A stretch of DNA of 64,000 nt from an uncultured Neisseriaceae bacterium. Lineage in GTDB: Bacteria > Pseudomonadota > Gammaproteobacteria > Burkholderiales > Neisseriaceae. This document shows positions 14,711 through 42,859 of this stretch, piece after piece; within the stretch, counting starts at the first letter, position 1, and the number at the start of each line of letters is the position of its first letter. The notes under the pieces were generated by a model. That model worked only from the letters and a program-made list of their open reading frames with translations, searched no databases and had not been told where the DNA came from. Where the stretch lies: assembly GCA_946481965.1 (NCBI GenBank), contig CAMLPN010000004.1, forward strand, positions 1 to 64,000, written 5' to 3'. The translations under genes and the position numbers were made by a program.

Positions 14711-16018
14711 TTATTTTATCTGAGGTAACATGCCATTAGGTAGTAATTGCCATACATAACCTGGAAATTTCATTTTTCCAGCTAATGCCCCAGCCTCATC
14801 TCCGTATCCCCAAAAATAATCTACTCTTACGGCACCATTGATAGCACTACCTGTGTCCTGTGCCATTAGCAGACGATTTAAACCGTAGCCAGTGGTCGGG
14901 TGTGTGGTCGCTAAAAATAATGGTGCACCCAAACTAACAAAATGATTATCGACTGCAGCAGAATAACCACTGGTTAAAGGAACCCCTAGTGCCCCAATTG
15001 GCCCACTGCTAGGTTCTACTGAACTGCTGAAAAAAACATAACTTGGATTTTGACCCAATACTTCAGCTAGTTGCTGCGGATGTTGTTGTAGCCAAGCTTT
15101 AATCCCTTGCATGGAGGTCTGCGCTAATGGCAAATAACCCTTACTAGCCATATACTTTCCTATAGACACATAAGGATAGTCGTTTTTATTGGCAAACCCC
15201 AGTCGTAATATATGACCATCAGGCGTTTTTAATTGTCCAGATCCCTGTACATGTAAAAAGAAAAGTTCCACCGGATCATTGGCGTAACCCAACACAGGTG
15301 CCTTGTTATTAAGTGCTCCGGCATTAATCTGAGCACGTGTGTAATAAGGAACAAATTGATTACCCGCAATTCTTCCTTTCAAGGCTTTACTTTTTTCATT
15401 AATCGGAAAGGAAGCCAGATTAGCGATATAAGTACCATTTTCAGCTATTTCTCCACTATTTTTTCCCGTAAGTCGAATACGCACGTTCCCCTGTCTCTTT
15501 ATTGTAGATAACGGTACAACAATAAAATCTGAGGGGATACCATATATGGGAAAACGTGCCTGAGCAGTCTGCTTGGTATCACCCAACAACATCGGTTCAT
15601 AGTATCCGGTTACGGTACCGGCCAGTTGGCCATTTTGGCTAACTTGCCATGGAGTAAAGTATTGCTCAAAGAATTTTTTGGCCTGATGTTTATTTTTACC
15701 GGTATGCAGTGCCTGCTGGCAGACTACCTGCCAGGAGGGCTGGCCTTGCAGTTTGCGACAGCTAATTTTAAATGCTTCGAGGCTATGTTCAAAAGATTGC
15801 AGCGACCATTGCGGCAATGCATCATAAGATACCACTCGATAGCTGACACCAGCTTTTTGAGGAGTAAAGACATAATTAACTGGATGCGCTTGTCCGGTTG
15901 GTAAAACTATGGTGTTGGGAATCGGTGTTTTTTTATGTAATAAATTACACGCAGCCAACAACAAAGCACTACATAAGAGCAGGTAATAACGTATCTGGTA
16001 ATGATTCATGAGTGACAT
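14711..16018 (-). CDS. mltA: Membrane-bound lytic murein transglycosylase A
   Basis: 435 aa; lipoprotein-like N-terminus, GTVTGYYEP, FFLHVQGSGQL, AQDTGSAINGAVRVDYFWGYG. Confidence 0.93.
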   Translation of the reverse strand: MSLMNHYQIRYYLLLCSALLLAACNLLHKKTPIPNTIVLPTGQAHPVNYVFTPQKAGVSYRVVSYDALPQWSLQSFEHSLEAFKISCRKLQGQPSWQVVCQQALHTGKNKHQAKKFFEQYFTPWQVSQNGQLAGTVTGYYEPMLLGDTKQTAQARFPIYGIPSDFIVVPLSTIKRQGNVRIRLTGKNSGEIAENGTYIANLASFPINEKSKALKGRIAGNQFVPYYTRAQINAGALNNKAPVLGYANDPVELFFLHVQGSGQLKTPDGHILRLGFANKNDYPYVSIGKYMASKGYLPLAQTSMQGIKAWLQQHPQQLAEVLGQNPSYVFFSSSVEPSSGPIGALGVPLTSGYSAAVDNHFVSLGAPLFLATTHPTTGYGLNRLLMAQDTGSAINGAVRVDYFWGYGDEAGALAGKMKFPGYVWQLLPNGMLPQIK

Positions 16019-17206: not shown

Positions 17207-17218
17207 AATCAGACCTAA

Positions 17219-18010
17219 TTAAATATAAGGAGTGGTGGTTGATTTTAAGGCGCTCGGATCAAGTGTCGATAACAAGTTCAGACCCACTTCTCGTGCTGCT
17301 ATCACTGCCTGACGAACTGCTCCTGAATCACCTGAGAATGTGAATATCACCTCATTACTGTAACTGGTTCCACTCGCTGGGCTTGAATAGCCTATTCCTT
17401 CTACTACCGCCGATTTCGCCGCCACATCCGCTATCACGACTCCTATCGCTGCCGGACAACCTACTGTCATCCCGAATGATTTACCTATTGGCGCACCAAA
17501 GGCTTTGTTTAATGCATAACTGGCGCGAGCAGTGTATTGAAACTCCAAATGTCCAGCTGGAGAACCATACACATCACCCATGGTTCGTTCTACTTCATTT
17601 AGCGATACTTCTACTGCACGACGTGCATCTGATACATCTTCTGCGCCAAACAGTACCAAGCTACCGTGACCGCCACCACCTTCTGTATCGCGTGCCAGCT
17701 CTACTTTTAAAATTTCACTATTGGTGGCTTTTACTGCCTCATCTGCGGCAAATATTTGCGGACCTGCACCTGTTCTGGCACCAAGAATACCGATTGAACG
17801 GTATTTTTTATCTATGCCCATTAACTCATGTAGTTGATTATCTACATTCGCTATGACTAAACCAATGGTATGTCCTGTCGCTGTGCCTACATATTCTGTT
17901 AAACCGCATCCGCTTAGATTTGAAGAGGCGACCTGTGACGTTCCTAATGATGGGGAGGTTTGTTTCCTTATCACCTCTGATACAATTTGTTCTACTAGAT
18001 TTTGACTCAT
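17219..18010 (-). CDS. BMC-T tandem-domain shell protein (PduB-like), copy 1
   Basis: Start assigned to ATG at 18010 (RBS ggagaggaggg); two BMC-like domains; protein identical to copy at 30294..31085. Confidence 0.9.
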   Translation of the reverse strand: MSQNLVEQIVSEVIRKQTSPSLGTSQVASSNLSGCGLTEYVGTATGHTIGLVIANVDNQLHELMGIDKKYRSIGILGARTGAGPQIFAADEAVKATNSEILKVELARDTEGGGGHGSLVLFGAEDVSDARRAVEVSLNEVERTMGDVYGSPAGHLEFQYTARASYALNKAFGAPIGKSFGMTVGCPAAIGVVIADVAAKSAVVEGIGYSSPASGTSYSNEVIFTFSGDSGAVRQAVIAAREVGLNLLSTLDPSALKSTTTPYI

Positions 18011-18031
18011 CTCAGCCCTCCTCTCCAATTA

Positions 18032-18316
18032 TCATTTCACTAAGGTGGTTGGTAATATTTTTTCCACTTCGGTATGAGGACGTGGAATAACATGGATAGA
18101 TACCAGTTCACCGACTTTGGTTGCTGCTGCTGAGCCTGCATCGGTGGCGGCTTTAACTGCACCTACATCGCCACGTACCATTACGGTAACCAGTCCTGAA
18201 CCAATTTTTTCATAACCCACTAAAGTGACATTGGCAGATTTGACCATGGTATCAGCGGCTTCAATTGCAGCCACTAAACCTTTTGTCTCAATCATACCTA
18301 ACGCTTCTTGTTGCAT
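18032..18316 (-). CDS. BMC-H shell protein (PduA-like), copy 1
   Basis: 94 aa; [53 protein letters not shown]; identical to 31107..31391. Confidence 0.95.
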
Positions 18317-18399
18317 ATCAGCTCCTTAATATTTAATTGAACGTTGACTAATAATAAGTAACAACCAAATTGATTTTCTTCCTGTTATTTTACTAAGTG

Positions 18400-18500
18400 A
18401 CAGTAACACTTTTATGCATAAAGACTATGATAGGCTCTTATTTTCTAAAATGTTAAAACGAGTAATCACAAAAGTCTTGCCAATGTATGAGACTATTTTG
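18400..18500 (-). promoter_or_regulatory. Candidate promoter/activator region upstream of BMC-H/BMC-T cassette copy 1
   Basis: Blocks CAGTAACACnTTTATGCATAAAGACTATGATAG and AAAAGTCTTGnCAA shared with copy 2 at equal 47-nt spacing in otherwise diverged upstream DNA. Confidence 0.55.
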
Positions 18501-18637: not shown

Positions 18638-19876
18638 TTAGGTATTAGCTGTTGACATTGGCAGTCGCAATCTGACTGTTGTTCCATGATTCGGTTTATT
18701 GTCACTTTCTATTTCCAGCCCAAATGAATCGCCGAATAAAAGTTTCAGCCGACTCTGTACATTTTGGATACCAATACTTTTATCATGATTTCGTTTGCTT
18801 GTATTGGAAAGAATAAAAGAAATTTTTTCTGGTGATATTCCATCACCATTATCAATGATTTCAATAAAAATAGTTTTACCATCATCATACGCCCTGATGG
18901 TGATATGGCTTTTTACCTCTCTAGGTTCAACTACATAATTAAAACAGTTTTCAACCAATGGCTGCAATATCAGAAACGGACTTGCTATGGGAAAATATTT
19001 TTCAGGTACGGTAATTTCATACGTAAAACGATCTTTCATACGTATCTGCTGAATAGCCAGATAACTTCTGATGGAGTTAACTTCACTACCTATAGTTATA
19101 AGTTTATTATCACCTTTTTTAAGAATATAACGCATCATATCTGAAAAAAGATAAACCATATCTTCAGTTTTTTGCGCATCTTCTAAAAAGGCGAGTTTGC
19201 CGATAGTATTAAGTACGTTAAATAAAAAATGCGGATTAATTTGGTAGGTTAAGGCTTTATACTCGGCATCGCGTAACGCATGTTCTAATTGAGCTAAATT
19301 CCGTTGCTCTTCTGCTAATTTAATACTTTTTGCATGTAATTCTTTTTGGATATTATTTATATAACCTTGCTCGGCAATGTCATTGGTCACACTGGACAAT
19401 AAATTTGCTGCTGCTATCAGTCTTTCATATGGAACAAAATTGATTTCTTCATAGGTTTTGGTGAGGGTGGACTGATTTTTACAATTATGTTGTTGTTCAA
19501 CTATATAAGGAATTTTACTTTCTTTTTCCGGTTCAACTCTGACGTGCCCCAGCAAGAATGCACCAAGATATTGGCCTCTGACAATCAAAGGAGCAGCAAT
19601 TTCAACTAGACCACAACAACAACGATAAACAACTGGTTCACCTATATCTAAAGTAGTGTTTCCGCCGGCATGACTACTTTCAAAACATTTACATTTTTGC
19701 ATTTGCTCAAGATATGAAATCTGGCAAAACGAGGCAAGGTCATTAGGTTCAACTACCGGAATACCGCTTTCATCAACTATAACTATGGTAATACTCATTG
19801 CTTTACTAAAATGATTTTGTAAAGCTTGTAATCTTTCAATATCTATCAGATCAATTAAACGAAATTGATAGCTCAT
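18638..19876 (-). CDS. PocR-domain sensor histidine kinase (LytS/YesM type), copy 1
   Basis: 412 aa; Cys-rich PocR-like N-terminus (YRCCCGLVEIAAPLIVRGQYLGAFLLG), H-box YQINPHFLFNVLNTIG, HATPase LVENCFNYV / GDGISPEKI. Confidence 0.88.
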   Translation of the reverse strand: MSYQFRLIDLIDIERLQALQNHFSKAMSITIVIVDESGIPVVEPNDLASFCQISYLEQMQKCKCFESSHAGGNTTLDIGEPVVYRCCCGLVEIAAPLIVRGQYLGAFLLGHVRVEPEKESKIPYIVEQQHNCKNQSTLTKTYEEINFVPYERLIAAANLLSSVTNDIAEQGYINNIQKELHAKSIKLAEEQRNLAQLEHALRDAEYKALTYQINPHFLFNVLNTIGKLAFLEDAQKTEDMVYLFSDMMRYILKKGDNKLITIGSEVNSIRSYLAIQQIRMKDRFTYEITVPEKYFPIASPFLILQPLVENCFNYVVEPREVKSHITIRAYDDGKTIFIEIIDNGDGISPEKISFILSNTSKRNHDKSIGIQNVQSRLKLLFGDSFGLEIESDNKPNHGTTVRLRLPMSTANT

Positions 19877-21355: not shown

Positions 21356-22378
21356 TCAGGCTACATTTCTTCTATACTCTGATGGTGATGTACCCGTTTC
21401 TTTTTTAAATAAACGACAAAAATAATTGGCATCGTTATAGGCCAGCTCTAAGGCAATGGTATTAATTTGCAAATCACTAAAGCGCAACAATAGCTGTGCC
21501 AGTACAATTTTGCGTTTTGCAATATATTCGGAAAACCCCAAGCCAAATTCTTTTTTGAATAATCGGCTTAGATAACATGAACTAATATAGGCATTTTCGG
21601 CAACGCTATCTAATGAGATATCTTTTAATATATTTTGTTCAATATAGTATTGGGCTCGTTGGATAGCAGATAATTTTTTTCCTGAAGCTTTACAGGCTAT
21701 ATCAAAAATACGGTTGCTAAGCTCCAGTAAGTCTGTCATTACTTTATAATAATTCCCTTTATTAGGTTTAAGATTATTTAAAAAGGTATCATTTTTATGT
21801 AGCTGCTCAATAACCCAGCCGCGTGACTGAGTTAGCTGATGGAGTAGATCCATTAAATTGAAAATTTCCTGATTATCCTCATCCTCTGCAAATTCATACT
21901 GTTTAGTTAAACTTTCAAGAATAAGATTATTCCACTCTATATATTGGCAATTATCAAGAAATTGTCCCATCTGTATTTTTTTCTGTTTTATTTCATGGCT
22001 TTTCTGTTCGTTAAACTCTAAACTGTTTTTAATGGTATTGATTAGAATCTGAGGTTTTATTGGCTTGAGCAGATAATCATCCACTTTCAATCCAAACATA
22101 TGGCGTGCTAAATCAATGTCATCGTTTGCAGTAGTCACGATAACTTTGGTTTCATTGGATTTACCACGTAAATAACGAATGACTTCTAAGCCATTTGGTA
22201 ATGGTATATTGATATCAACTAACATTAAATCAATATGATTAAGCTGATCAATTAATTGAATTGCTTCACTGCCCTTACTTGCTTCAACTACATTGACATC
22301 ATCAAAACCCTTATTAATAATTTTTTTTAAAGCTTCTAATTCAATTAATTCATCTTCGACCAATAATATTTTATACAT
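21356..22378 (-). CDS. AraC-type response regulator (receiver + HTH_18, YesN-like)
   Basis: 340 aa; receiver MYKILLVEDELIELEAL...LMLVDINIPLPNGLEVI; C-terminal AraC HTH AENAYISSCYLSRLFKKEFGLGFSEYI. Confidence 0.9.
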   Translation of the reverse strand: MYKILLVEDELIELEALKKIINKGFDDVNVVEASKGSEAIQLIDQLNHIDLMLVDINIPLPNGLEVIRYLRGKSNETKVIVTTANDDIDLARHMFGLKVDDYLLKPIKPQILINTIKNSLEFNEQKSHEIKQKKIQMGQFLDNCQYIEWNNLILESLTKQYEFAEDEDNQEIFNLMDLLHQLTQSRGWVIEQLHKNDTFLNNLKPNKGNYYKVMTDLLELSNRIFDIACKASGKKLSAIQRAQYYIEQNILKDISLDSVAENAYISSCYLSRLFKKEFGLGFSEYIAKRKIVLAQLLLRFSDLQINTIALELAYNDANYFCRLFKKETGTSPSEYRRNVA

Positions 22379-23639
22379 ATGGCAATTCTCTGATATTATT
22401 TTGTTCCATAGGAAATCTTAAACGTACGGTTGTTCCCATATTTGGTTTATTCGGGCTTTTTATCTCTAAGCCATAACGTTGGCCAAATAATAGTCTAAGC
22501 CTATTTTGGATATTTTTAATACCAATGCTATTGTGATTATTCTCCTGTACATCATCGGATAGGATTTCATTGATTTTATCAGCCGGTATACCATCCCCAT
22601 TATCTGAAACTTCCAATAGAACATCGTGACCATCATCATAAGCAGATAATGAAATAAAAGATTTTTCTTCTTTTGGTTCAATCACGTATTTAAAACAATT
22701 TTCAACCAATGGTTGTAAAACCAAAAACGGGCTGGCAATATCCAGATATTTATCTGGTATATTTATTTTATAACTAAATCGATCTTTCAAACGGATTTGC
22801 TGAATGGCTAAATAACTTTTAACTGCATTGACTTCACTACCGATGGTGATTAATTTATTATCACTTTTTTTGAGAATATAACGCATCATATCCGAAAAAT
22901 AATATACAGTATTTTCCGTTTGTTCTGCGTCCTCTAAAAAAGCCAATCGACCGATAGTATTTAAGACATTAAATAAAAAATGTGGGTTAATTTGATAAGA
23001 TAATACCTTGTATTCTGCATCACAAAGGGCTCGTTCTAAATCAGCACGATTGCGTAATTCTTCTGCCAATTTGATACTTTTAGCATGCAATTCTTTCTGA
23101 ATTTTATTGGCATAAGCTTGTTCTGCTAAATAAAGAGCAATATTTGATAAGGAATAGGCTGCCGCCTCAAATCTATCATAAGGAATATAATTGGCTTGCT
23201 GATGAGCTTGCACTAGCTTTGCATTATTTTCCCACTCAGAAGTACGACCTAATATATAGGGTATGGTTTGCTGTTTTTCCTGTTCGACCTGAACTTGTCC
23301 GGAAATAAAAGCACCGAGATATTGTCCATTAACAATGATTGGCACCGCAAATTCGACAAAATCACAGCAACAACGATAAACGACTGGTTTATTAGCCGAC
23401 ATAGCTGCACGTCCACCAGCATTATCACATTGAAAACATTTATCTTGCTGAGACACACTAGCCCTAGACAATTTACAAAATGTGGAAAATCCACTTGGTT
23501 TTGTAATTGGCATCCCTTTTTCATTAACGATAACAATAGCAACACCAATTGATTTGCTAAAATTATCCTGCAATGTTTGCAATTGCTTTAATTCTATTAG
23601 TTCCGTTAGCCGGAATGTATAATTCATTAAACACTCCAT
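22371..23639 (-). CDS. PocR-domain sensor histidine kinase (LytS/YesM type), copy 2; overlaps RR by 8 nt
   Basis: 422 aa; paralogous to 18638..19876 (YRCCCDFVEFAVPIIVNGQYLGAFISG; YQINPHFLFNVLNTIGRLAFLEDAEQTE). Confidence 0.88.
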   Translation of the reverse strand: MECLMNYTFRLTELIELKQLQTLQDNFSKSIGVAIVIVNEKGMPITKPSGFSTFCKLSRASVSQQDKCFQCDNAGGRAAMSANKPVVYRCCCDFVEFAVPIIVNGQYLGAFISGQVQVEQEKQQTIPYILGRTSEWENNAKLVQAHQQANYIPYDRFEAAAYSLSNIALYLAEQAYANKIQKELHAKSIKLAEELRNRADLERALCDAEYKVLSYQINPHFLFNVLNTIGRLAFLEDAEQTENTVYYFSDMMRYILKKSDNKLITIGSEVNAVKSYLAIQQIRLKDRFSYKINIPDKYLDIASPFLVLQPLVENCFKYVIEPKEEKSFISLSAYDDGHDVLLEVSDNGDGIPADKINEILSDDVQENNHNSIGIKNIQNRLRLLFGQRYGLEIKSPNKPNMGTTVRLRFPMEQNNIRELPYV

Positions 23640-23833: not shown

Positions 23834-24751
23834 TTACCCACCAATATGGCAGCTAATACCAGCCTTTTCGATTTCTTGTTTCAAAAGATCTATTCTTTCT
23901 TCGGGAACTTCTTTGACCCCATCAAATGGATATACACGTCCTAATAATTGATATTTATTTTGTCCATAATTGTGGTATGGCAGAAGATGAATAACATCAA
24001 TATCTTTCATTAATTTGGTAAATTCAGCAATTTCTCTAATGGATTCTGGATTGTCATTCACATTTGGGATAACCGGAATTCTGACAATAGTTTTAGTTAA
24101 ATACGAGATACGAATCAAATTTTCTAAAATTATTTTATTATCCACACCAGTGGCATTTCTGTGCACGACTGGGTCGATAGATTTAATATCGGTCAGAGCT
24201 AAATCGACAAATGGCATCACCGATTCAATCACTTCTTTGGTTGTCATACCGGTAGTTTCCATGGCGGTATGCCATCCTTTTTCCTTACAAGCACGCAATA
24301 GCTCTCTGGTGAATTTAGGCTGGGAGAGAGCTTCTCCGCCTGAAAGGGTAATACCACCATTTGAGCGTCGGTAAATAGCTGCATCTTTTTGTAATTCCTG
24401 TATGACTTCCCAAACAGTCATTTTTTTACCCTTTAGAACTAGGGCATTAGTCGGGCAAACTTCTGCGCAAGCACCACAGGCGACACAGCGATCTCGATCA
24501 ACTAAATAAGGATTATTTACAGATAATGCTCCATATTTACAGGCTTCTAAACATCTACCACAGTGAATACAACTGCTTTCCTGATACATGATTTCAGGCT
24601 GTGGTCTTTGTGATTCAGGATTACTACACCATTTACAAGCTAAAGGACACCCTTTTAAAAAAGGAATGGTTCGAATACCCGGTCCATCATGTAATGAGTA
24701 GCGCTGAATATTAAAAACTGTTCCTTCAAGATCATATGCTATATTTTCCAT
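23834..24751 (-). CDS. cutD: Glycyl radical enzyme activating enzyme (radical SAM; choline TMA-lyase activase)
   Basis: 305 aa; GCPLACKWCSNPESQ (CxxxCxxC variant), ferredoxin-like insert with two CxxCxxC-type clusters, GGITLSGGEAL. Confidence 0.92.
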   Translation of the reverse strand: MENIAYDLEGTVFNIQRYSLHDGPGIRTIPFLKGCPLACKWCSNPESQRPQPEIMYQESSCIHCGRCLEACKYGALSVNNPYLVDRDRCVACGACAEVCPTNALVLKGKKMTVWEVIQELQKDAAIYRRSNGGITLSGGEALSQPKFTRELLRACKEKGWHTAMETTGMTTKEVIESVMPFVDLALTDIKSIDPVVHRNATGVDNKIILENLIRISYLTKTIVRIPVIPNVNDNPESIREIAEFTKLMKDIDVIHLLPYHNYGQNKYQLLGRVYPFDGVKEVPEERIDLLKQEIEKAGISCHIGG

Positions 24752-25041: not shown

Positions 25042-27600
25042 TTAGAATTTCTGCTCTGTTCGACTAATGATGTCGTCTTGTACATCTTTAGCCAATACGA
25101 CGAATTGAGCACTATACCCAGCTACTCGTACAACCAAATCGCGGTATTCTTCTGGATTTTGTTGTGCTTTAATCAGCGTATCTCGATTGATAACATTAAA
25201 TTGCATGTGCATACCTTTGCGATCAAAATAACCGCGAATCATGCCACTGAAATTTTTCAGACCACTGTCACCAGATAAAGCTGAAGGTAAGAATTTCTGG
25301 TTATATAAGGTACCATTTGATGCAATGAAATGATCAAGTTTTGATACGGAGTTAGCTGCTGCGGTTGGGCCCAGAGTATCTTTACCTTGTCGTGGTGAAA
25401 CACCATCGGCCAGAGGTTCCTTAGCCAAACGACCATCCGGCAAGGCATTAACATCTCGACCAAACAGTACATTAGCAGATACAGGATAAATACCTGCCTG
25501 GAACTGACCGCCACGAGGATTGGTATATTTTTCGACCTCTTTACAGTAAATCAAGGCACAATGACGAGCGACCAAATCCACTGCATCTATGTCATTACCA
25601 AAGCATGGGGTGCTGGCAAGTATACGGCGAACATCTTCATAGTGAGCATGACCACACTGACCAGCCGCATTGCAAGTATTTTGTACAGATAATTGACGAT
25701 ACACTTCATTTTTAACAGCTTCAGGATCCAAAGAACCATTTTGGCTAATGATACCTTTAACCATGTCATAAATTTGCTGTTCATTCAATGAACTGTCAAC
25801 TTCGACTTTGCCACCGTGCAAATGTGTACCCACTGGATAACCAAAGTTAGCCTGAAGGGCTTCTTTCAGATCAGACAAGGAAACTTTGCCATCTTCAAAC
25901 ACCTGTTTTTGAATTGCATAAACAGAGTCACCAGTATCAGCTACACCAAAGGCTTGAGGACCGGTAAAGTTGTAGATAGCACCACCTTCCTGTACAGATT
26001 TACCGCGACCGATACAATCATCCACCATTGCAGATAAGAATGGCAGCGGGCAACGCTCTGCATGGGCAATATCAACACTATTACAAGCTTCTGCCAGATT
26101 ACGTACGAAGAATTGAATCTGGGTTTGGAATGCCTGATACAGATCATCAATGCTACGGAAAGTAGTAATATCACCGGTAACAGGGCCTAATTGACGTCCA
26201 TTAACCTGACCATTATTCAGGGTAATTTCAAGTACTTTAGCTACATTAAAGAATGCAGCATCATGCCAGCCTTCGGTACGATGTGGCGACTGTGGTTCAA
26301 CACAGCCGATAATGCAGTAATCACGTGCATCTTTCAGGGAAACACCGCGGTTTTGTAATGCAGGAATAATGACTTCATCATTATACATTGCCGGAACACC
26401 TAATCCTAACCGAACTACCTCACAGGCACGATATAAAAATTCATCAGGTGTACCTTGCCATACACGAATGGAGAAAGATGGTTGTGGCAAACGAACATGT
26501 GCAGTCGCTTGCATACACATATAACTCATCTCATTGGTCGCATCCAAGCCGTCTTCGGTCTGTCCACCAACACAAAGGTTCTGGAATACAGCATAACCTG
26601 CAAAGGCTTGTGCTGAAATTTCATCACGGGTTTTATTAACATCGTTCAGTTTAACCCAGCAGCAATCAACGAGTTCCTGCGCAAAATCTTCGCTGATACT
26701 TTTATCTGCTTTATAGTAAGGGTTCATATACTGGTCAAAACGACCCGGAGAAACAGAATGGCCACTTGACTCAATTTGTAATAAACACTGAACAAACCAG
26801 AATGACTGACAAGCTTCCCAGAAGTTGGTAGCACCACGTTCTGGCACACGACGACAATTCTGTGCAATTTGCAGTAATTCGGCTTTACGTTGTGGATTAG
26901 ATTCTTGCTGCGCTAATTCGTTGGCTTTATCAGCATAGCGATGGGCAAAATTAATCGCAGCCTTATAAGTGATAATGATGGCATTATAAAATTGTTCTTT
27001 TTTAATAAAGCCAGGATCCATGCGATCCAGTTTTGCCAATGCGGCATTAACTTCTTCAATGATGCCCAGAAAACCAATACGTAAAATTTTACCGTAATCA
27101 ACGCTAATATGACCCACACCGCCATAGAAATAATTACCAACCGTAAATACCCCATTGGCAATACAATCGCGGGTTTGCTGAGACATATAAGAATTAGCTA
27201 AATCACTGGTTGTTTTACCTGGCCAGTATTTGAACGCTTCATGCAATTCTTGTGCGGTTTGTTGTGGAATAATAAATGGATCAGCAATACGATGTTCCAT
27301 TGTGTCGAATTCTTTTTCTACCCACTCAAAAGAGAATTCAGGACAAATTTCTGTTGAACGCGGATTTTTGGTAATAGCACCAACAATCAATTCATCATCA
27401 CGGATGGTTACCGGCAAATTATTAAATAATTTTTCCGCAACCTTAGCACGGCGGATGATCGCAGGTAAACCTTCTGTTTCTTTATAAGCCTGAGTTGCCA
27501 AAACAGCACGCTCTGATTCAACATGTGGCTTCGCATTAATAATTGTATTTTTTAATCTGATAATACGATCCGTTGGATTAGTGAACCCTTTTTCAATCAT
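25042..27600 (-). CDS. cutC: Choline trimethylamine-lyase (glycyl radical enzyme)
   Basis: 852 aa; YGGVGHISVDYGKIL (Asp expected for choline lyases), catalytic GCVEP, glycyl loop RVAGYSAQF. Confidence 0.9.
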   Translation of the reverse strand: MIEKGFTNPTDRIIRLKNTIINAKPHVESERAVLATQAYKETEGLPAIIRRAKVAEKLFNNLPVTIRDDELIVGAITKNPRSTEICPEFSFEWVEKEFDTMEHRIADPFIIPQQTAQELHEAFKYWPGKTTSDLANSYMSQQTRDCIANGVFTVGNYFYGGVGHISVDYGKILRIGFLGIIEEVNAALAKLDRMDPGFIKKEQFYNAIIITYKAAINFAHRYADKANELAQQESNPQRKAELLQIAQNCRRVPERGATNFWEACQSFWFVQCLLQIESSGHSVSPGRFDQYMNPYYKADKSISEDFAQELVDCCWVKLNDVNKTRDEISAQAFAGYAVFQNLCVGGQTEDGLDATNEMSYMCMQATAHVRLPQPSFSIRVWQGTPDEFLYRACEVVRLGLGVPAMYNDEVIIPALQNRGVSLKDARDYCIIGCVEPQSPHRTEGWHDAAFFNVAKVLEITLNNGQVNGRQLGPVTGDITTFRSIDDLYQAFQTQIQFFVRNLAEACNSVDIAHAERCPLPFLSAMVDDCIGRGKSVQEGGAIYNFTGPQAFGVADTGDSVYAIQKQVFEDGKVSLSDLKEALQANFGYPVGTHLHGGKVEVDSSLNEQQIYDMVKGIISQNGSLDPEAVKNEVYRQLSVQNTCNAAGQCGHAHYEDVRRILASTPCFGNDIDAVDLVARHCALIYCKEVEKYTNPRGGQFQAGIYPVSANVLFGRDVNALPDGRLAKEPLADGVSPRQGKDTLGPTAAANSVSKLDHFIASNGTLYNQKFLPSALSGDSGLKNFSGMIRGYFDRKGMHMQFNVINRDTLIKAQQNPEEYRDLVVRVAGYSAQFVVLAKDVQDDIISRTEQKF

Positions 27601-28234: not shown

Positions 28235-28546
28235 TCAAAAACCTTGTCCCATTTCATCCATTTCCTCAATTGCTTGCATAGCAACATTAACCGCGGAAAT
28301 TTCCCCAAAAATGGCTAAAGTCGTAATATGTTGCGGACAACTGCCAAATACTTCAGATACAACAACATTAGCGGATTTACTGGCTACATCAGCATAAAAG
28401 TAGAGATCAGGAATAGAAACCATCATCAAGCCGACTGCATCGACATGAAATTGATTTAACAATGTCCGGGCATCATTCGGAGTACGTTTTTTCAACATAT
28501 CCAGAATTTGTTTGCTTGGTGCATTGATTATTCTTTTTTTCGCCAC
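28235..28546 (-). CDS. BMC shell protein, PduU/EutS-type circularly permuted BMC-H
   Basis: 103 aa; VDAVGLMMVSIPDLYFYADVASKSANVVVSEVFGSCPQHITTLAIFGEISAVNVAM. Confidence 0.85.
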   Translation of the reverse strand: MAKKRIINAPSKQILDMLKKRTPNDARTLLNQFHVDAVGLMMVSIPDLYFYADVASKSANVVVSEVFGSCPQHITTLAIFGEISAVNVAMQAIEEMDEMGQGF

Positions 28547-28565: not shown

Positions 28566-30269
28566 TTATCTAATATTTAATGATTCCACCATCACACAGC
28601 GCCGTTGACGAGCAAACGATCTTGCTGATGTGAGCCCTTCACCAGTAGGACCAGCGATGGTAAATGTTGAAAATCCTTCACCGCCTGCACCCAATCCTGT
28701 ATAGGAAGGACCATTTTTAACAAAGATGGTTGTCTGAATAAGTTTGGCCATCTTGGTTAATTTCTCAACATTCATAGAATGCATAATGGCTGTGTGTCGG
28801 TTACCGTGCTCAACTTCTATAGCCAAATCAATAGCTTCATCAACATCACCAACTCGAACCAGCGGTAAAATTGGCATCATTAATTCATGAACAACGAACG
28901 GATGTGATCTATCGGTTTCAATCAAAATGATTTTGGTATTATCTGGAGCAGAAATACCCAGTTTTTCTAACAGATAAATGGCACTTTTTCCGACAAACTG
29001 GGTATTGGGACCAGTTTTCTTGTCGTTTAACACCAATTCCTGCAATTGGGCAATCTTAGCCTGATCAGTGAGCAGATAAGCACCACTTTTCTTCATGCAG
29101 TGAATTAGAAAATCAGCAACCTGATCAACTACAATCAGCTCTTTTTCTGCCACACAAGGAATATTGTTATCAAAGCTGCAACCACTAACAATATCTTTGG
29201 CCGCTTTTTCAATATTGGCTGATTCATCAACTACCACCGGAGGATTTCCCGCTCCTGCACCTATGGCTTTCTTACCGCTGCGTAATACAGATTGAACGAT
29301 AGCTGGACCACCAGTAGCGACTAACATTCTAATTTTTGGATGAGACATCATCGTATTGGTATTTTCAATGGATGGTTTATCCACTGTAACCACCAGATTT
29401 TGCGGTGCGCCCAACTGTGCTAATTTTTCGTTAATCAGTTTTACAGCCAATAAGGATACGTTTTTAGAACGAGGATGCGGACTGAATACCACGCTGTTAC
29501 CAGCCGCCAGCATACCAATGGAATTACAAATAATGGTTTCAGTTGGGTTGGTGGTTGGGGTGATAGAACCAATGACTCCATAGGCTGAATATTCAACTAA
29601 AGATAAGCCATCATCTCCGCTACAGGCTCGGGTAATCAAATCTTCTGTGCCTGGGGTTTTAGAAGCAGCTAAACGATTTTTGATCAATTTATCTTCGTAG
29701 CAGCCCATACCAGTTTCTTCAACGGCCATAGCTGCAACCTGTTCTAAAACTGATTGCTGGAGAAAGACTTCACGGATACCATCGATAAATTTCTGTCGAT
29801 CAGTCATAGAGCAAAGCTGATATTGCCGCTGCGCTTTATGTGCAGCTTCAATTGCCTCATCCATACTGGTAAAAATACCATTACCTTGTGCAGCCTGAAC
29901 ATTAACATGCATGGCTGCAGGAGCTTTGCTGGTATTGGTGTTTTTATTTAATATTTGCGCGACAATATTATTGATTAAAGCATCCTTATCAGTATTGGCA
30001 CTTTCTACTGTATTGTTTTTATTTAATATTTGCGCAACAATATTATTGATCAGACCACTATTGTCAGTATTGGTCTTTTCTACAGTGGTATTGGTATTTA
30101 ATATTTGTGCAACAATATTATTGATCAAACCACTATTATCAGTACTCGTTTTTTCTACTGAGGCTGGCTGATTAGGCATTGTTTGAGCAGATTCTGCGCT
30201 ACCTTTTGCCCCGCCACTGTATTTACTTAATACATTAGCCACAGCTTGGGAGATTGCTAAATCATTCAT
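28566..30269 (-). CDS. CoA-acylating acetaldehyde dehydrogenase (CutF/EutE/PduP-like) with repeated N-terminal targeting region
   Basis: 567 aa; ALDH domain with catalytic Cys in SFDNNIPCVAEKELIV; GAGAGNPPVVVD; N-terminal amphipathic repeats. Confidence 0.9.
   Translation of the reverse strand: MNDLAISQAVANVLSKYSGGAKGSAESAQTMPNQPASVEKTSTDNSGLINNIVAQILNTNTTVEKTNTDNSGLINNIVAQILNKNNTVESANTDKDALINNIVAQILNKNTNTSKAPAAMHVNVQAAQGNGIFTSMDEAIEAAHKAQRQYQLCSMTDRQKFIDGIREVFLQQSVLEQVAAMAVEETGMGCYEDKLIKNRLAASKTPGTEDLITRACSGDDGLSLVEYSAYGVIGSITPTTNPTETIICNSIGMLAAGNSVVFSPHPRSKNVSLLAVKLINEKLAQLGAPQNLVVTVDKPSIENTNTMMSHPKIRMLVATGGPAIVQSVLRSGKKAIGAGAGNPPVVVDESANIEKAAKDIVSGCSFDNNIPCVAEKELIVVDQVADFLIHCMKKSGAYLLTDQAKIAQLQELVLNDKKTGPNTQFVGKSAIYLLEKLGISAPDNTKIILIETDRSHPFVVHELMMPILPLVRVGDVDEAIDLAIEVEHGNRHTAIMHSMNVEKLTKMAKLIQTTIFVKNGPSYTGLGAGGEGFSTFTIAGPTGEGLTSARSFARQRRCVMVESLNIR
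29919..30143 (-). repeat. Three in-frame 75-bp tandem repeats encoding 25-aa encapsulation-peptide-like units
   Basis: TDNSGLINNIVAQILNTNTTVEKTN / TDNSGLINNIVAQILNKNNTVESAN / TDKDALINNIVAQILNKNTNTSKAP. Confidence 0.95.
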
Positions 30270-30293
30270 ATTTTTTCCTGCGTGTTCTCAGTA

Positions 30294-31085
30294 TTAAATA
30301 TAAGGAGTGGTAGTTGATTTTAAGGCGCTCGGATCAAGTGTCGATAATAAGTTCAGACCCACTTCTCGTGCTGCTATCACTGCCTGACGAACTGCTCCTG
30401 AATCACCTGAGAATGTGAATATCACCTCATTACTGTAACTGGTTCCACTCGCTGGGCTTGAATAGCCTATTCCTTCTACTACCGCCGATTTCGCCGCCAC
30501 ATCCGCTATCACGACTCCTATCGCTGCCGGACAACCTACTGTCATCCCGAATGATTTACCTATTGGCGCACCAAAGGCTTTGTTTAATGCATAACTGGCG
30601 CGAGCAGTGTATTGAAACTCCAAATGTCCAGCTGGAGAACCATACACATCACCCATGGTTCGTTCTACTTCATTTAGCGATACTTCTACTGCACGACGTG
30701 CATCTGATACATCTTCTGCGCCAAACAGTACCAAGCTACCGTGACCGCCACCACCTTCTGTATCGCGTGCCAGCTCTACTTTTAAAATTTCACTATTGGT
30801 GGCTTTTACTGCCTCATCTGCGGCAAATATTTGCGGACCTGCACCTGTTCTGGCACCAAGAATACCGATTGAACGGTATTTTTTATCTATGCCCATTAAC
30901 TCATGTAGTTGATTATCTACATTCGCTATGACTAAACCAATGGTATGTCCTGTCGCTGTGCCTACATATTCTGTTAAACCGCATCCGCTTAGATTTGAAG
31001 AGGCGACCTGTGACGTTCCTAATGATGGGGAGGTTTGTTTCCTTATCACCTCTGATACAATTTGTTCTACTAGATTTTGACTCAT
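30294..31085 (-). CDS. BMC-T tandem-domain shell protein (PduB-like), copy 2
   Basis: Identical protein to 17219..18010; N-terminal NLVEQIVSEVIRKQ helix. Confidence 0.9.
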   Translation of the reverse strand: MSQNLVEQIVSEVIRKQTSPSLGTSQVASSNLSGCGLTEYVGTATGHTIGLVIANVDNQLHELMGIDKKYRSIGILGARTGAGPQIFAADEAVKATNSEILKVELARDTEGGGGHGSLVLFGAEDVSDARRAVEVSLNEVERTMGDVYGSPAGHLEFQYTARASYALNKAFGAPIGKSFGMTVGCPAAIGVVIADVAAKSAVVEGIGYSSPASGTSYSNEVIFTFSGDSGAVRQAVIAAREVGLNLLSTLDPSALKSTTTPYI

Positions 31086-31106
31086 CTCAGCCCTCCTCTC
31101 CAATTA

Positions 31107-31391
31107 TCATTTCACTAAGGTGGTTGGTAATATTTTTTCCACTTCGGTATGAGGACGTGGAATAACATGGATAGATACCAGTTCACCGACTTTGGTTGCT
31201 GCTGCTGAGCCTGCATCGGTGGCGGCTTTAACTGCACCTACATCGCCACGTACCATTACGGTAACCAGTCCTGAACCAATTTTTTCATAACCCACTAAAG
31301 TGACATTGGCAGATTTGACCATGGTATCAGCGGCTTCAATTGCAGCCACTAAACCTTTTGTCTCAATCATACCTAACGCTTCTTGTTGCAT
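31107..31391 (-). CDS. BMC-H shell protein (PduA-like), copy 2
   Basis: Identical protein to 18032..18316. Confidence 0.95.
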
Positions 31392-31476
31392 ATCAGCTCC
31401 TTAACATTTAATTGAACATCGATTAATAATCAGAAAGAATAAAATTGACCATCTTTACTGTTATTTTTCCATGTGG

Positions 31477-31577
31477 CAGTAACACATTTATGCATAAAGA
31501 CTATGATAGACTTTTGCTAATAATGATAGTAAATGCGGATCTGATAAAAGTCTTGACAAGTAATATGAGTATTTTGT
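31477..31577 (-). promoter_or_regulatory. Candidate promoter/activator region upstream of BMC cassette copy 2
   Basis: Same two conserved blocks and spacing as 18400..18500. Confidence 0.55.
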
Positions 31578-33515: not shown

Positions 33516-33785
33516 TCATTCCGCCAGCTCGGTAGTATCAACAATACCGACAATGGCCGCGTCAATGACAGAATGGTCTTTATGATTAGCTAAGCGCGCA
33601 GAACTACCCTTGGAAACGATGACAATTTCTCCATTACCAGCGCCTACAGTATCAACAGCAACTTCTGTAAATTGTTCTGGTTGTAATTGGGCATTTAAAC
33701 GTCTAATGATCAGTAATTTCATACCACTTAACGAAACATCTTTTGTTGTGGATACGACTGTGCCAATTACTTTTGCTAAATACAT
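33516..33785 (-). CDS. BMC-P vertex protein (EutN/CcmL family)
   Basis: 89 aa; MYLAKVIGTVVSTTKDVSLSGMKLLIIRRL...VDTVGAGNGEIVIVSKGSSAR. Confidence 0.93.
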   Translation of the reverse strand: MYLAKVIGTVVSTTKDVSLSGMKLLIIRRLNAQLQPEQFTEVAVDTVGAGNGEIVIVSKGSSARLANHKDHSVIDAAIVGIVDTTELAE

Positions 33786-35446: not shown

Positions 35447-36115
35447 TTATTTGGCTATAGTCACAATATCATCATTCGCCAGACCATAAGCATTGGCCTC
35501 TTCAACATCTATATGCATTTCAAGAATCGATGCCTCGGTAGCTCTGACAATGACATTTTTCATCACACCACCACGTATACCGCCAACATTGACACTTACT
35601 TTCTGACCATCTGATAAGTTAAATTGTCTGGCCAGCTCAGGCGGAATATGAATGTGACGCCACGCTACAATAGTACAATGTTCACGTTCGATTCTGCCTT
35701 TGGGACCAATAATTTCTATTTTTTCCGCTTTATCAAGATCACCTGACATTTTAATGGGTGCCTTAATGCCTAAAACAAAATTATCGCTGACAGATATTTC
35801 TACTTGTGTTCGCGATCGTAACGGACCTAAAATGCGAACATTTTTAATTTCTTTTTTCGGTCCTTTCAGGGTAACTGTTTCTTGTGCTGCAAACTGGCCG
35901 GGTTGTTTAACTGCTTTTAGACGAGTCAGAGAAGAACCTTGCCCAAAAAGTATATCCATATCCTGCCGACTCAAATGCACATGTCGATTTGAAACACCAA
36001 TCGGTATTTGCAAATCCGACTTTTCTCCCGTGAAAAGTACTTGCTGGGTATTTTTATTATGCAACTTCTGCCAGATTTGCTGAGAAAGTTCCTTTATCTG
36101 ATTATCATCAATCAT
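35447..36115 (-). CDS. pduL: Phosphate propanoyl/acetyltransferase PduL
   Basis: 222 aa; IPIGVSNRHVHLSRQDMDILFG, REHCTIVAWRHIHIPPELA, HIDVEEANAYGL; helical N-terminal extension. Confidence 0.93.
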   Translation of the reverse strand: MIDDNQIKELSQQIWQKLHNKNTQQVLFTGEKSDLQIPIGVSNRHVHLSRQDMDILFGQGSSLTRLKAVKQPGQFAAQETVTLKGPKKEIKNVRILGPLRSRTQVEISVSDNFVLGIKAPIKMSGDLDKAEKIEIIGPKGRIEREHCTIVAWRHIHIPPELARQFNLSDGQKVSVNVGGIRGGVMKNVIVRATEASILEMHIDVEEANAYGLANDDIVTIAK

Positions 36116-36226: not shown

Positions 36227-37411
36227 CTAACCAATAATTTGTTCAATTAAATATTCAATATCAGTTGCATTAACTGACTTGGGGTTGGTTTTGGTACAGC
36301 TGTCATTTAATACAGCGGTAATGACCTCCTGTAAATTTTGCCGCAATAATCCAATATCTGAACCTAATTCTTTTAATGATGCCGGAATACCCATCATCTT
36401 ATTCAGGCGCTGAATTTGTTTAACCAGCTGCTGTACCTGCATAATATTATTTTGATTTTGTAAATCCATTATTCTGGCACATAAAGCATAACGATCACGG
36501 ATATGTTCATCATCCTGACTATTAAATTTGATTATGATCGGTAACAACATTGCATTGATTTTGCCATGAGCGATGTGTAGTAATGCCCCCAAAGCATGAG
36601 CCATCCCATGTACTAGCCCTAATCCGGCAGAATTAAAAGCCATACCAGCTAAACAGGAAGCATGGTGAACTTTTTCTCTGGCATATTGGTTATTCAGATC
36701 GTGAAATACTTGTGGTAGGTATTCGTGAACCATACGTAAAGATTTTTCCGCCAAAGCATCGCTGAAATCATTAGCATTAATTGATACTAACGCTTCAATC
36801 GCATGTGTCATGACGTCCATACCAGTATCCATGGAAACGCTTCTGGGGACGCTCATCACTAAACTTGAATCTAATATAGCAACATCAGGCAGTAAATCCT
36901 CAGATACCAGAGGATATTTGATATTATTGGCGGGATCAGAAATAATCGCATAAGTAGTCACTTCCGAACCAGAACCACTTGTTGTTGGTATTGCCACTAA
37001 TAGTATCGAATCTACGATACCTAATGTATTTAATGTCGCGGCAATCCCTTTGGCAGCATCAAGCGAGGAACCACCACCAAAAGCTATAATTACCTGCGGT
37101 CTTAACTCATAAAAAAAACGAGCTCCTTGTTGCAACACATCAATACTGGGATCAGGTTTTACTTCACTGAAAACAGCTGTTTCACATTGTGCTAATTGTT
37201 CAGTTATTCGATTAATTAATCCCGATGAAACCATAAAACTATCGGTCACAATGCCGACTCTTTGGCCGGCATATTGCTGTAAAGTTTGTAAGGCATTTTC
37301 GCCACTGTAAATACGCGATCTAATGCTGAACTGGTTAACCATATGACACCCGTTGCCTGAATAAAATAACGTAGATTTCTGTACAGGTAATCTATCATTC
37401 ATTATTTTCAA
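36227..37411 (-). CDS. Iron-containing alcohol dehydrogenase (EutG/CutO-like); start probably ATG near 37342
   Basis: GGGSSLDAAKGIA, PTTSGSGSEVT, GLVHGMAHALGALLHIAHG. Confidence 0.92.
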   Translation of the reverse strand: MKIMNDRLPVQKSTLFYSGNGCHMVNQFSIRSRIYSGENALQTLQQYAGQRVGIVTDSFMVSSGLINRITEQLAQCETAVFSEVKPDPSIDVLQQGARFFYELRPQVIIAFGGGSSLDAAKGIAATLNTLGIVDSILLVAIPTTSGSGSEVTTYAIISDPANNIKYPLVSEDLLPDVAILDSSLVMSVPRSVSMDTGMDVMTHAIEALVSINANDFSDALAEKSLRMVHEYLPQVFHDLNNQYAREKVHHASCLAGMAFNSAGLGLVHGMAHALGALLHIAHGKINAMLLPIIIKFNSQDDEHIRDRYALCARIMDLQNQNNIMQVQQLVKQIQRLNKMMGIPASLKELGSDIGLLRQNLQEVITAVLNDSCTKTNPKSVNATDIEYLIEQIIG

Positions 37412-40249: not shown

Positions 40250-42859
40250 ATGAGCAAACCGACTTTGACACCGATGATGTCGCAATACATGTCGATAAAA
40301 GCCGACCATCAAGATAAATTATTATTTTACCGGATGGGGGACTTCTATGAACTGTTTCTGGAAGATGCTGTGGAAGCGGCACGTTTACTTGATATTACTC
40401 TGACTACCCGCGGACAAATAAATGGCGAACCCATTAAAATGGCGGGAGTGCCCTATCATGCAGTTGAACAATATCTGGCTAAACTGGTAAAACAAGGTAA
40501 AAGCGTAGCCATCTGTGAACAGGTCGGAGAAGTTGGTGCAGTAAAAGGGCCGGTAGAACGCAAAGTTGTCCGCATCGTTACCCCCGGTACGCTAACTGAC
40601 AGTGCACTGCTGGAAGATAAAGAAACCAATCGCATTGCTGCATTATATTTTTATAAGAAACACATTGGTTTAGCGTGGTTATCACTACAAAGTGGGGAAT
40701 TTCGCTGCAAAATCATTACACCGGAAGCCGTAACACATGAACTGGCTCGTTTGCAGGCTGCGGAAATACTGCTCTCTGATCAAACACAAGACAGATTAGA
40801 CCTAAGCGGCTATCGACAACAACTAACCCGTCTACATGGCTGGCAATTTGCTGCTGATACCGGGACACGATTAATTCAACGCTATTTCGGCAGTCAGGAT
40901 TTACGTGCTTTTGGTTTAGTGCCGGGTGAACATGATGCAGCTATAGGAGCTGCTGGTGCACTGCTTAACTATGTACAGCAGACACAAATGCAACTACCGC
41001 AACATTTGGATAGCCTGACTCTGGAACAGGAAACCACATATATTGGCATGGATGCGTCTACCCGACGCAATCTGGAATTAACCCAGACCCTAAGTGGCCA
41101 AAAAGCACCAACTTTATTCTCTGTTTTAGATCATTGCGCCACCCATATGGGCAGTCGTTTACTGGCTCAGTGGTTACATCAACCATTACGCCAGCAAAAA
41201 CATATCGTGGCTCGGCAAAAAGCCACTGAGGCACTTATTGCCCATCGGGATGCTATTACAGCCATGTTAAAACAGGTGGCAGATATTGAGCGAATTGCTG
41301 CACGGATTGCTATTGGCAGTGCACGACCACGGGATTTATCAGCTTTGCGCGATAGTCTGCATACATTGGCCGATTTCCAGCTAGCAAGCAGCACCGAAAG
41401 CTCACTGGTACAAACTTTATTTGAACAATTCCCACCGGCTAAAGCGGTGGCTGAGCAATTAACAGCAGCCATCATGCCAGAACCAGCCATCTGGCTACGT
41501 GACGGTGGAGTAATCAACAACAACTACAATCAGCAATTGGATGAATTACGTCGCCTGCAAGATCATGGCGATGACTTTCTGCAACAATTGGAAGCTCGTG
41601 AACGGGAACGTACCGGTCTGACCAGTTTAAAAGTAGAATTTAATCGCGTGCACGGCTTTTATATAGAACTGAGTAAAGCCCAATCAGAACAAGCACCGGC
41701 TGATTATCAACGTCGCCAGACCTTAAAAAATGCCGAGCGTTATATCACTCCTGAGCTAAAAGATTTTGAAGAAAAAGTACTGGGGGCACAGCAAAATGCA
41801 CTTGCTTTAGAAAAGCGCCTCTACGATGCATTACTGACCGAATTACAAACTGCACTTCCCTTGCTACAACGCTGTGCTAAAGCAGCAGCTACTCTGGATG
41901 TGCTGACCACATTTGCTGCCTATGCCGCTCAGACAGATTATTGTTTTGCGCAACTGGTTAATTATCCGTGTTTACAAATCAAAAACGGACGTCACCCTGT
42001 TGTTGCTGCTCAAGTGGCACAATTTACTGCCAATGATACCCATTTGGACGACAAACATCGTTTAATGTTACTGACCGGGCCCAATATGGGCGGTAAATCT
42101 ACCTATATGCGTCAGGTAGCCCTGATTGTATTACTGGCACATATTGGTGCTCCCGTGCCAGCGCAACAGTGCACACTGGGACCATTTGATCAGATATTTA
42201 CCCGTATTGGTGCCTCTGATGATTTGGCTTCTAACCGTTCCACTTTTATGGTTGAAATGTCAGAAACGGCCTATATCCTGCATCATGCAACGGCACAGTC
42301 ATTAGTCCTGATGGACGAAGTTGGACGTGGTACTTCTACCTTTGATGGTTTGGCACTGGCTCAAGCTATCGCCGAACATTTGTTACAGAAAAATCGTAGC
42401 TATACTTTATTTGCCACACACTACTTTGAACTAACCCAATTACCGGAACAATTCAGCCACGCCTTTAACATGCATCTTTCGGCCATTGAGGATGGACAAG
42501 AAATTACTTTTCTGCACCATATTGAACCCGGCCCAGCCAGCAAAAGTTATGGTATTGCGGTGGCCAAATTAGCTGGCTTACCAAACCGTGCCCTTAATGC
42601 AGCCTATCGCCATCTACAGGCACTTGAGCAACATGCTGCCGCTAATCAGCCACAAATGGATATGTTTCAGTCCAAAACAGAAACCGATGCCGCGATAACT
42701 GATACTGATATGACACCAGCTGCTACTAATTCATCGCTACCAGAAGATCTGGGTGCAAAATTTACGGCTTTACATCCAGATGAATTAACACCAAAGGCAG
42801 CTCTGGATGCAGTTTATGAATTGGCACAGTGGTGGCAGAATTATCAGAAAAATTCCTGA
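40250..42859 (+). CDS. mutS: DNA mismatch repair protein MutS
   Basis: 869 aa; [38 protein letters not shown]. Confidence 0.98.

Follow-up and report, generated by a model that had tools for sequence, protein, structure and literature searches.

Why does the aldehyde dehydrogenase of a bacterial metabolosome carry three tandem copies of a short peptide in front of its catalytic domain, and what could such an array do? The question arises from a 64,000-nucleotide contig segment of an uncultured Neisseriaceae bacterium (genome G000), the whole of which is called the window below.

The metabolosome locus

The locus encodes PduL, a EutJ-like protein, a flavoprotein, a BMC-P protein, a DUF336/HbpS protein, a BMC-H protein, PduB, the aldehyde dehydrogenase (ALDH), a small BMC protein, a DJ-1-like protein, a glycyl radical enzyme, its activating enzyme and metK (coordinates of the main features in Table 1). 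The combination by which GRM3 loci are recognized, a glycyl radical enzyme and an activating enzyme together with BMC shell genes, was thus found, in the gene order of locus L104 and of the Escherichia coli grp locus. The same order was observed in Rahnella victoriana and E. coli, whose annotation assigns these genes to the grp propanediol utilization system; GrpJ is the E. coli aldehyde dehydrogenase. The GrpM-type glycyl radical enzyme contained an internal insertion, as GRM3 enzymes have. PMC4207490 gives as GRM3 ancillary genes an acetate kinase, a peptidase, a flavoprotein, a EutJ homologue, a SAM synthetase and a DUF336 protein. The genes of this list were present here, the flavoprotein and the HbpS/DUF336-type protein being called by profile and the acetate kinase, DJ-1/PfpI-like, EutJ-like and MetK proteins by reading of the open reading frames and by position. 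The locus encodes a GRM3 metabolosome, for which B12-independent use of 1,2-propanediol is probable by homology.

Table 1. Features of the GRM3 locus and of the ALDH tail (positions in the window).
Feature	Position	Strand	Basis
Glycyl radical enzyme activating protein	23834..24751	-	position and sequence, as in L104
Glycyl radical enzyme, 1,2-propanediol dehydratase type, GrpM	25042..27600	-	TIGR01774 in two stretches; position matches grpM
Small BMC-domain protein with N-terminal extension, GrpK position	28235..28546	-	weak PF00936, 29 bits; same place as E. coli grpK
CoA-acylating (propion)aldehyde dehydrogenase, PduP/GrpJ type, 567 aa, 128-aa N-terminal tail	28566..30269	-	NCBIfam NF011927, 727 bits; Pfam Aldedh
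Flexible linker to catalytic domain, aa 112-128	29886..29936	-	pLDDT <50 for 109-127
Repeat unit 3, aa 87-111, TVESANTDKDALINNIVAQILNKNT	29937..30011	-	repeat call; predicted helix 92-112
Repeat unit 2, aa 62-86, TVEKTNTDNSGLINNIVAQILNKNN	30012..30086	-	repeat call; predicted helix 71-84
Repeat unit 1, aa 37-61, SVEKTSTDNSGLINNIVAQILNTNT	30087..30161	-	repeat call; predicted helix 46-59
Helix 1 of the encapsulation tail, MNDLAISQAVANVLSKYSG	30213..30269	-	kept in all GRM3 relatives; predicted helix aa 3-17
PduB-type BMC-T shell protein, encapsulation-peptide-like N-terminal helix LVEQIVSEVIRKQ	30294..31103	-	TIGR04501, 383 bits
BMC-H shell protein, PduA/GrpH-like	31107..31391	-	profile search
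BMC-P (EutN/CcmL) vertex protein	33516..33785	-	PF03319, 104 bits
PduL phosphotransacylase	35447..36115	-	PF06130, NF011652
Iron-containing alcohol dehydrogenase	36227..37411	-	PF00465

Three in-frame units in the ALDH tail

Tandem Repeats Finder detected a repeat at 29938-30144 (period 75, 2.8 copies, 84% match, score 288). The units are direct and in frame, each of 75 bp or 25 codons, with pairwise DNA identities of 83, 79 and 81%. The 11-residue core LINNIVAQILN is identical at the protein level in all three, and the spacers between the units are rich in Asn and Thr. The tandem array of three 25-aa units with a common core described in an earlier note on this DNA was therefore confirmed, and the N-terminal helix has the sequence MNDLAISQAVANVLSKYSG given there. 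The nearest solved structure for the enzyme was 5jfl/5jfn, the GRM3 AldDH of Rhodopseudomonas palustris.

The same three units were present in G006, an independent assembly of a near-identical organism (mutS 99% identical), so the array is not an assembly artifact; the units themselves differ by 17-21%, and the layout in G006 is identical. An 86-aa frame at 29911-30171 on the opposite (+) strand was dismissed as a candidate antisense gene and taken to be a by-product of the in-frame 75-bp period. An internal ALDH start that would drop the array was also rejected, the alternative starts having no ribosome-binding-site match and the MND start being conserved.

Origin of the array

The ALDH tail of GRM3 loci was described as carrying two predicted amphipathic helices of 12-15 residues, 20-25 residues apart; it was disordered in the crystal, and the enzyme was tetrameric (PMC5311937). 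The R. palustris BisB18 enzyme (PDB 5JFN/5JFL) and E. coli GrpJ belong to the same enzyme family and the same locus type as the protein studied here, and the layout is shared: helix 1 is followed, after a linker of some 20-25 residues, by helix 2, a second linker and the catalytic domain. The tail in the window follows this two-helix architecture with unordered linkers and contains helix 1 and a homologue of helix 2, but the latter, with its linker, is present three times, giving a tail of 128 aa versus about 63-77 in R. palustris and E. coli.

Close GRM3 relatives possessed helix 1 (MND..I.QAV...LS/K[KR][YF]) and a single helix 2, for example SIEAIVASVLAS, GLDDIVAKALAQ, SLVSSIVAQVLAQ and GLIDAIVAELLQ. 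The single copy was seen in the nearest one-unit relative, which is 85% identical (locus L011 and genome G004 of the same genus, with the same ALDH tail), and in nine other gammaproteobacterial GRM3 loci. The L011 unit aligned with unit 1 over both linker and core (EKDS-DHHGLIDAIVAELL vs EKTSTDNSGLINNIVAQIL), and none of 3000 shuffles was as good. Helix 2 of the other relatives was less similar to the units (shuffle fractions of 0 to 0.18), and for these the homology rests on position and on an I-V/I-A...L pattern in common. Of 5426 E. coli genomes, 537 had the gene, the N-terminal query being covered at a single place in each, and its length was nearly constant in 60 of the 537 sampled evenly down the ranking. 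Clostridial and PduP-type relatives had one helix only. Broader samples, drawn from the class and from the phylum, provided few further relatives, and the tails compared are those from outside the phylum sample. The repeat peptide used as a query gave no match among plasmids.

Since a helix 2 occupies the position of the repeat core in all the close relatives examined, it is helix 2 that has been triplicated. As judged from these alignments, the array is a lineage-specific tandem triplication of a known element and not a new array on a one-helix enzyme. The premise that encapsulation peptides are normally single fails for GRM3 ALDHs, given the published two-helix tail (PMC5311937) and the second helix in all close relatives examined. 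Nor was the suggested change in copy number of the 75-bp repeats seen within the lineage, both G000 and G006 having three units. No description of natural tandem encapsulation peptides was found in the literature searched, which lay largely outside subscription journals, and no such array was present in the other relatives sampled. The two-helix tail, and serial arrays as engineered constructs, were already known.

Constraint on the cores

Tandem duplication by slippage or unequal crossing-over could be neutral, the extra units merely lengthening a flexible linker while one helix 2 suffices. The disorder of the homologue's tail (PMC5311937) is in line with such an origin, as are the restriction of the array to one lineage (G000, G006), with its absence from the other relatives, and the free variation of the helix-to-helix linkers across the ALDH family. 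The pattern of changes between the units argues against it. Although the unit DNA has diverged by 17-21%, the cores showed 4 synonymous and 0 nonsynonymous changes, compared with 6 synonymous and 12 nonsynonymous changes in the linkers (Fisher p=0.029), and the probability of observing no nonsynonymous core change under neutrality was 0.002. Gene conversion between the repeats could contribute to the identity of the cores and partly mimic constraint. The comparison of the G000 and G006 enzymes over residues 1-315 and 323-567 (approximately 98% of the protein) revealed only three amino-acid differences, E64Q, S71G and S114G, all in the repeat-region linkers around the cores. Taken together, a neutral duplication appears unlikely.

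Motif, fold and charge of the units

A motif model was built from 21 encapsulation peptides from outside the GRM3 clade, one of which (L092) entered out of register. It ranked the three cores as the top three positions of the 567-aa protein, with scores of 11.5, 9.6 and 7.3, which were matched in 0.2, 0.6 and 1.8%, respectively, of tail shuffles. The weakest, that of unit 1, was not significant alone (7.3 for a 95th percentile of 8.0 in whole-protein shuffles). The same model gave the PduB N-terminus (NLVEQIVSEVIRKQ) a score of 18.3 for a shuffle 95th percentile of 5.3, and the proposed likeness between the cores and the N-terminus of the PduB-type BMC-T protein is borne out in that one model recognizes both. 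A hydrophobic-moment test was significant neither for the ALDH repeats nor for the Salmonella PduP peptide; as this known peptide fails too, the test is uninformative at such a peptide length.

In the AlphaFold model (28 sequences), helices were predicted at residues 3-17, 46-59, 71-84 and 92-112 with a pLDDT of about 50-70, separated by linkers below 50, and the catalytic domain started at approximately residue 131 with a pLDDT above 90. When the tail was folded alone (mean pLDDT 43), the four helices were in place and their packing carried no meaning.

Metabolosome peptides commonly contain two residues of opposite charge spaced by one helical turn, although this is not strictly required (PMC12339742). 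No such pair was present here, LINNIVAQILN having no charged residue, and helix 2 of the GRM3 relatives likewise has Ala at the position equivalent to R11. In PduP, the R11A substitution left self-assembly intermediate and did not abolish it. The core retains the hydrophobic positions, including the equivalent of I10 of PduP. As the units have no Glu/Arg pair of the kind that strengthens PduP condensation, each of them may be weak. An encapsulation peptide is an amphipathic helix of ~15-20 residues attached through a flexible linker to one end of a cargo protein, and it serves to direct cargo into the compartment or to condense it. For the ALDH units, the motif scores and the predicted fold agree, although helix confidence is modest and the hydrophobic moment not significant; on this basis they are probably encapsulation-peptide-like helices, carried by a cargo enzyme of the metabolosome.

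A valency model for the array

Encapsulation peptides in series were built in a 2025 study of valency, in which the characterized tagged enzymes were noted to rely on valency provided by the oligomer (PMC12339742). In E. coli cells, partitioning increased stepwise from one copy through two to three; in vitro, a pair was moderately better than one, three gave little or no gain, perhaps because of self-binding, and one peptide on a tetramer was stronger than serial copies (PMC12339742). Multivalent binding by the ALDH array is plausible because serial peptides raised partitioning in E. coli (PMC12339742). In Salmonella, the PduB N-terminus acts as a signal sequence (PMC12108088), and encapsulation peptides bind the interfaces between PduA hexamers (PMC11157265).

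We propose an explanation that we regard, as a whole, as rather probable. In this view, the triplication arose in one lineage of this Neisseriaceae genus after its split from G004, and the triplicated helix 2 would raise the valency of the enzyme, with stronger networking of the cargo and attachment to the encapsulation-peptide-like N-terminus of PduB as a result. On a tetramer, the state expected from the family, the number of short sticky helices would be about 16 (4 x [1+3]) versus 8. Such a particle would bear many weak stickers on flexible spacers, linking ALDH more strongly to other cargo during assembly of the 1,2-propanediol organelle. The stickers might also hold the cargo to PduB or to the grooves between shell tiles. 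Valency from serial copies and valency from the oligomer would then be combined in one enzyme. We infer the formation of the helices in the real protein, their partners and the effect of valency. A more tentative extension, possible rather than probable, is that the natural array tunes metabolosome assembly by intrinsic valency, selection having acted on how many copies of a weak, uncharged sticker are present and not on sticker strength.

The units may instead bind only the grooves between shell tiles, anchoring the enzyme to the shell without condensation of the core. The position of encapsulation peptides at PduA hexamer-hexamer interfaces (PMC11157265) agrees with this, as does the retention in the cores of hydrophobic positions without the Glu/Arg pair used in self-association, and the locus possesses one more BMC-H/PduB gene pair, almost the same in sequence. 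This reading, somewhat unlikely in its exclusive form, overlaps with the valency explanation, and both may act together. It is also conceivable that the helices of a single tail bind one another, the three forming a self-capping bundle that lowers or buffers stickiness. Encapsulation peptides have been proposed to form trimers, and the self-binding of three serial peptides, with the gain coming to a stop, was obtained in vitro and in simulation (PMC12339742). Nevertheless, the three-peptide design had the highest partitioning among the serial designs in E. coli cells (PMC12339742), and in the predicted fold the helices are apart and not confidently packed, though the model cannot decide this point. 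We consider such a bundle quite improbable.

The closest engineered counterparts are the PduP EP1-EP3 constructs (PMC12339742), which likewise carry tandem peptides with linkers, in 1 to 3 copies, at the N-terminus of the cargo. Those are synthetic, use the PduP peptide and were placed on fluorescent proteins, whereas the array described here is natural, follows a different first helix, belongs to an enzyme whose family is tetrameric and has uncharged cores. The PduB signal sequence (PMC12108088), an amphipathic-helix motif caught by the same model as the ALDH cores, consists, unlike the ALDH array, of one helix, borne by a shell protein that connects the shell with the core. The locus offers a natural three-copy array on a real enzyme, for which a one-copy relative within the genus provides a matched control. 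The question of valency becomes testable in an evolved system, and synthetic compartments could be loaded by means of the array as an existing multi-copy tag. Repeated binding elements are also found in CsoS2 and CcmM, proteins that organize carboxysomes. These are separate scaffold proteins, whereas the ALDH repeats sit on a catalytic enzyme, and the likeness is meant descriptively.

Genomic context of the locus

The GRM3 region of approximately 24 kb (16682-40200) lies between an mltA-like gene (14711-16018) and mutS (40250-42859). In G001, G005 and G007, three genomes without a BMC-H match, the mltA-like gene and mutS are about 300 bp apart, and because of this arrangement the region looks like a clean island insertion. 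Within the genus, only 3 of 14 genomes had the locus. There are two copies of the BMC-H/PduB gene pair (17218-18433 and 30293-31509; 98.3% identical over 1.2 kb, with identical proteins), and the BMC-H gene was present twice in G004 and G006 as well. Two paralogous PocR-type sensor kinases (18638-19876 and 22371-23639), whose DNA is 76% identical in part, flank metK; a single one is annotated in the Rahnella locus. On another contig of the same assembly (G000:C3:34295-34852), a 207-aa frame encodes a two-domain BMC protein of PduT-like size, which may mark a satellite locus.
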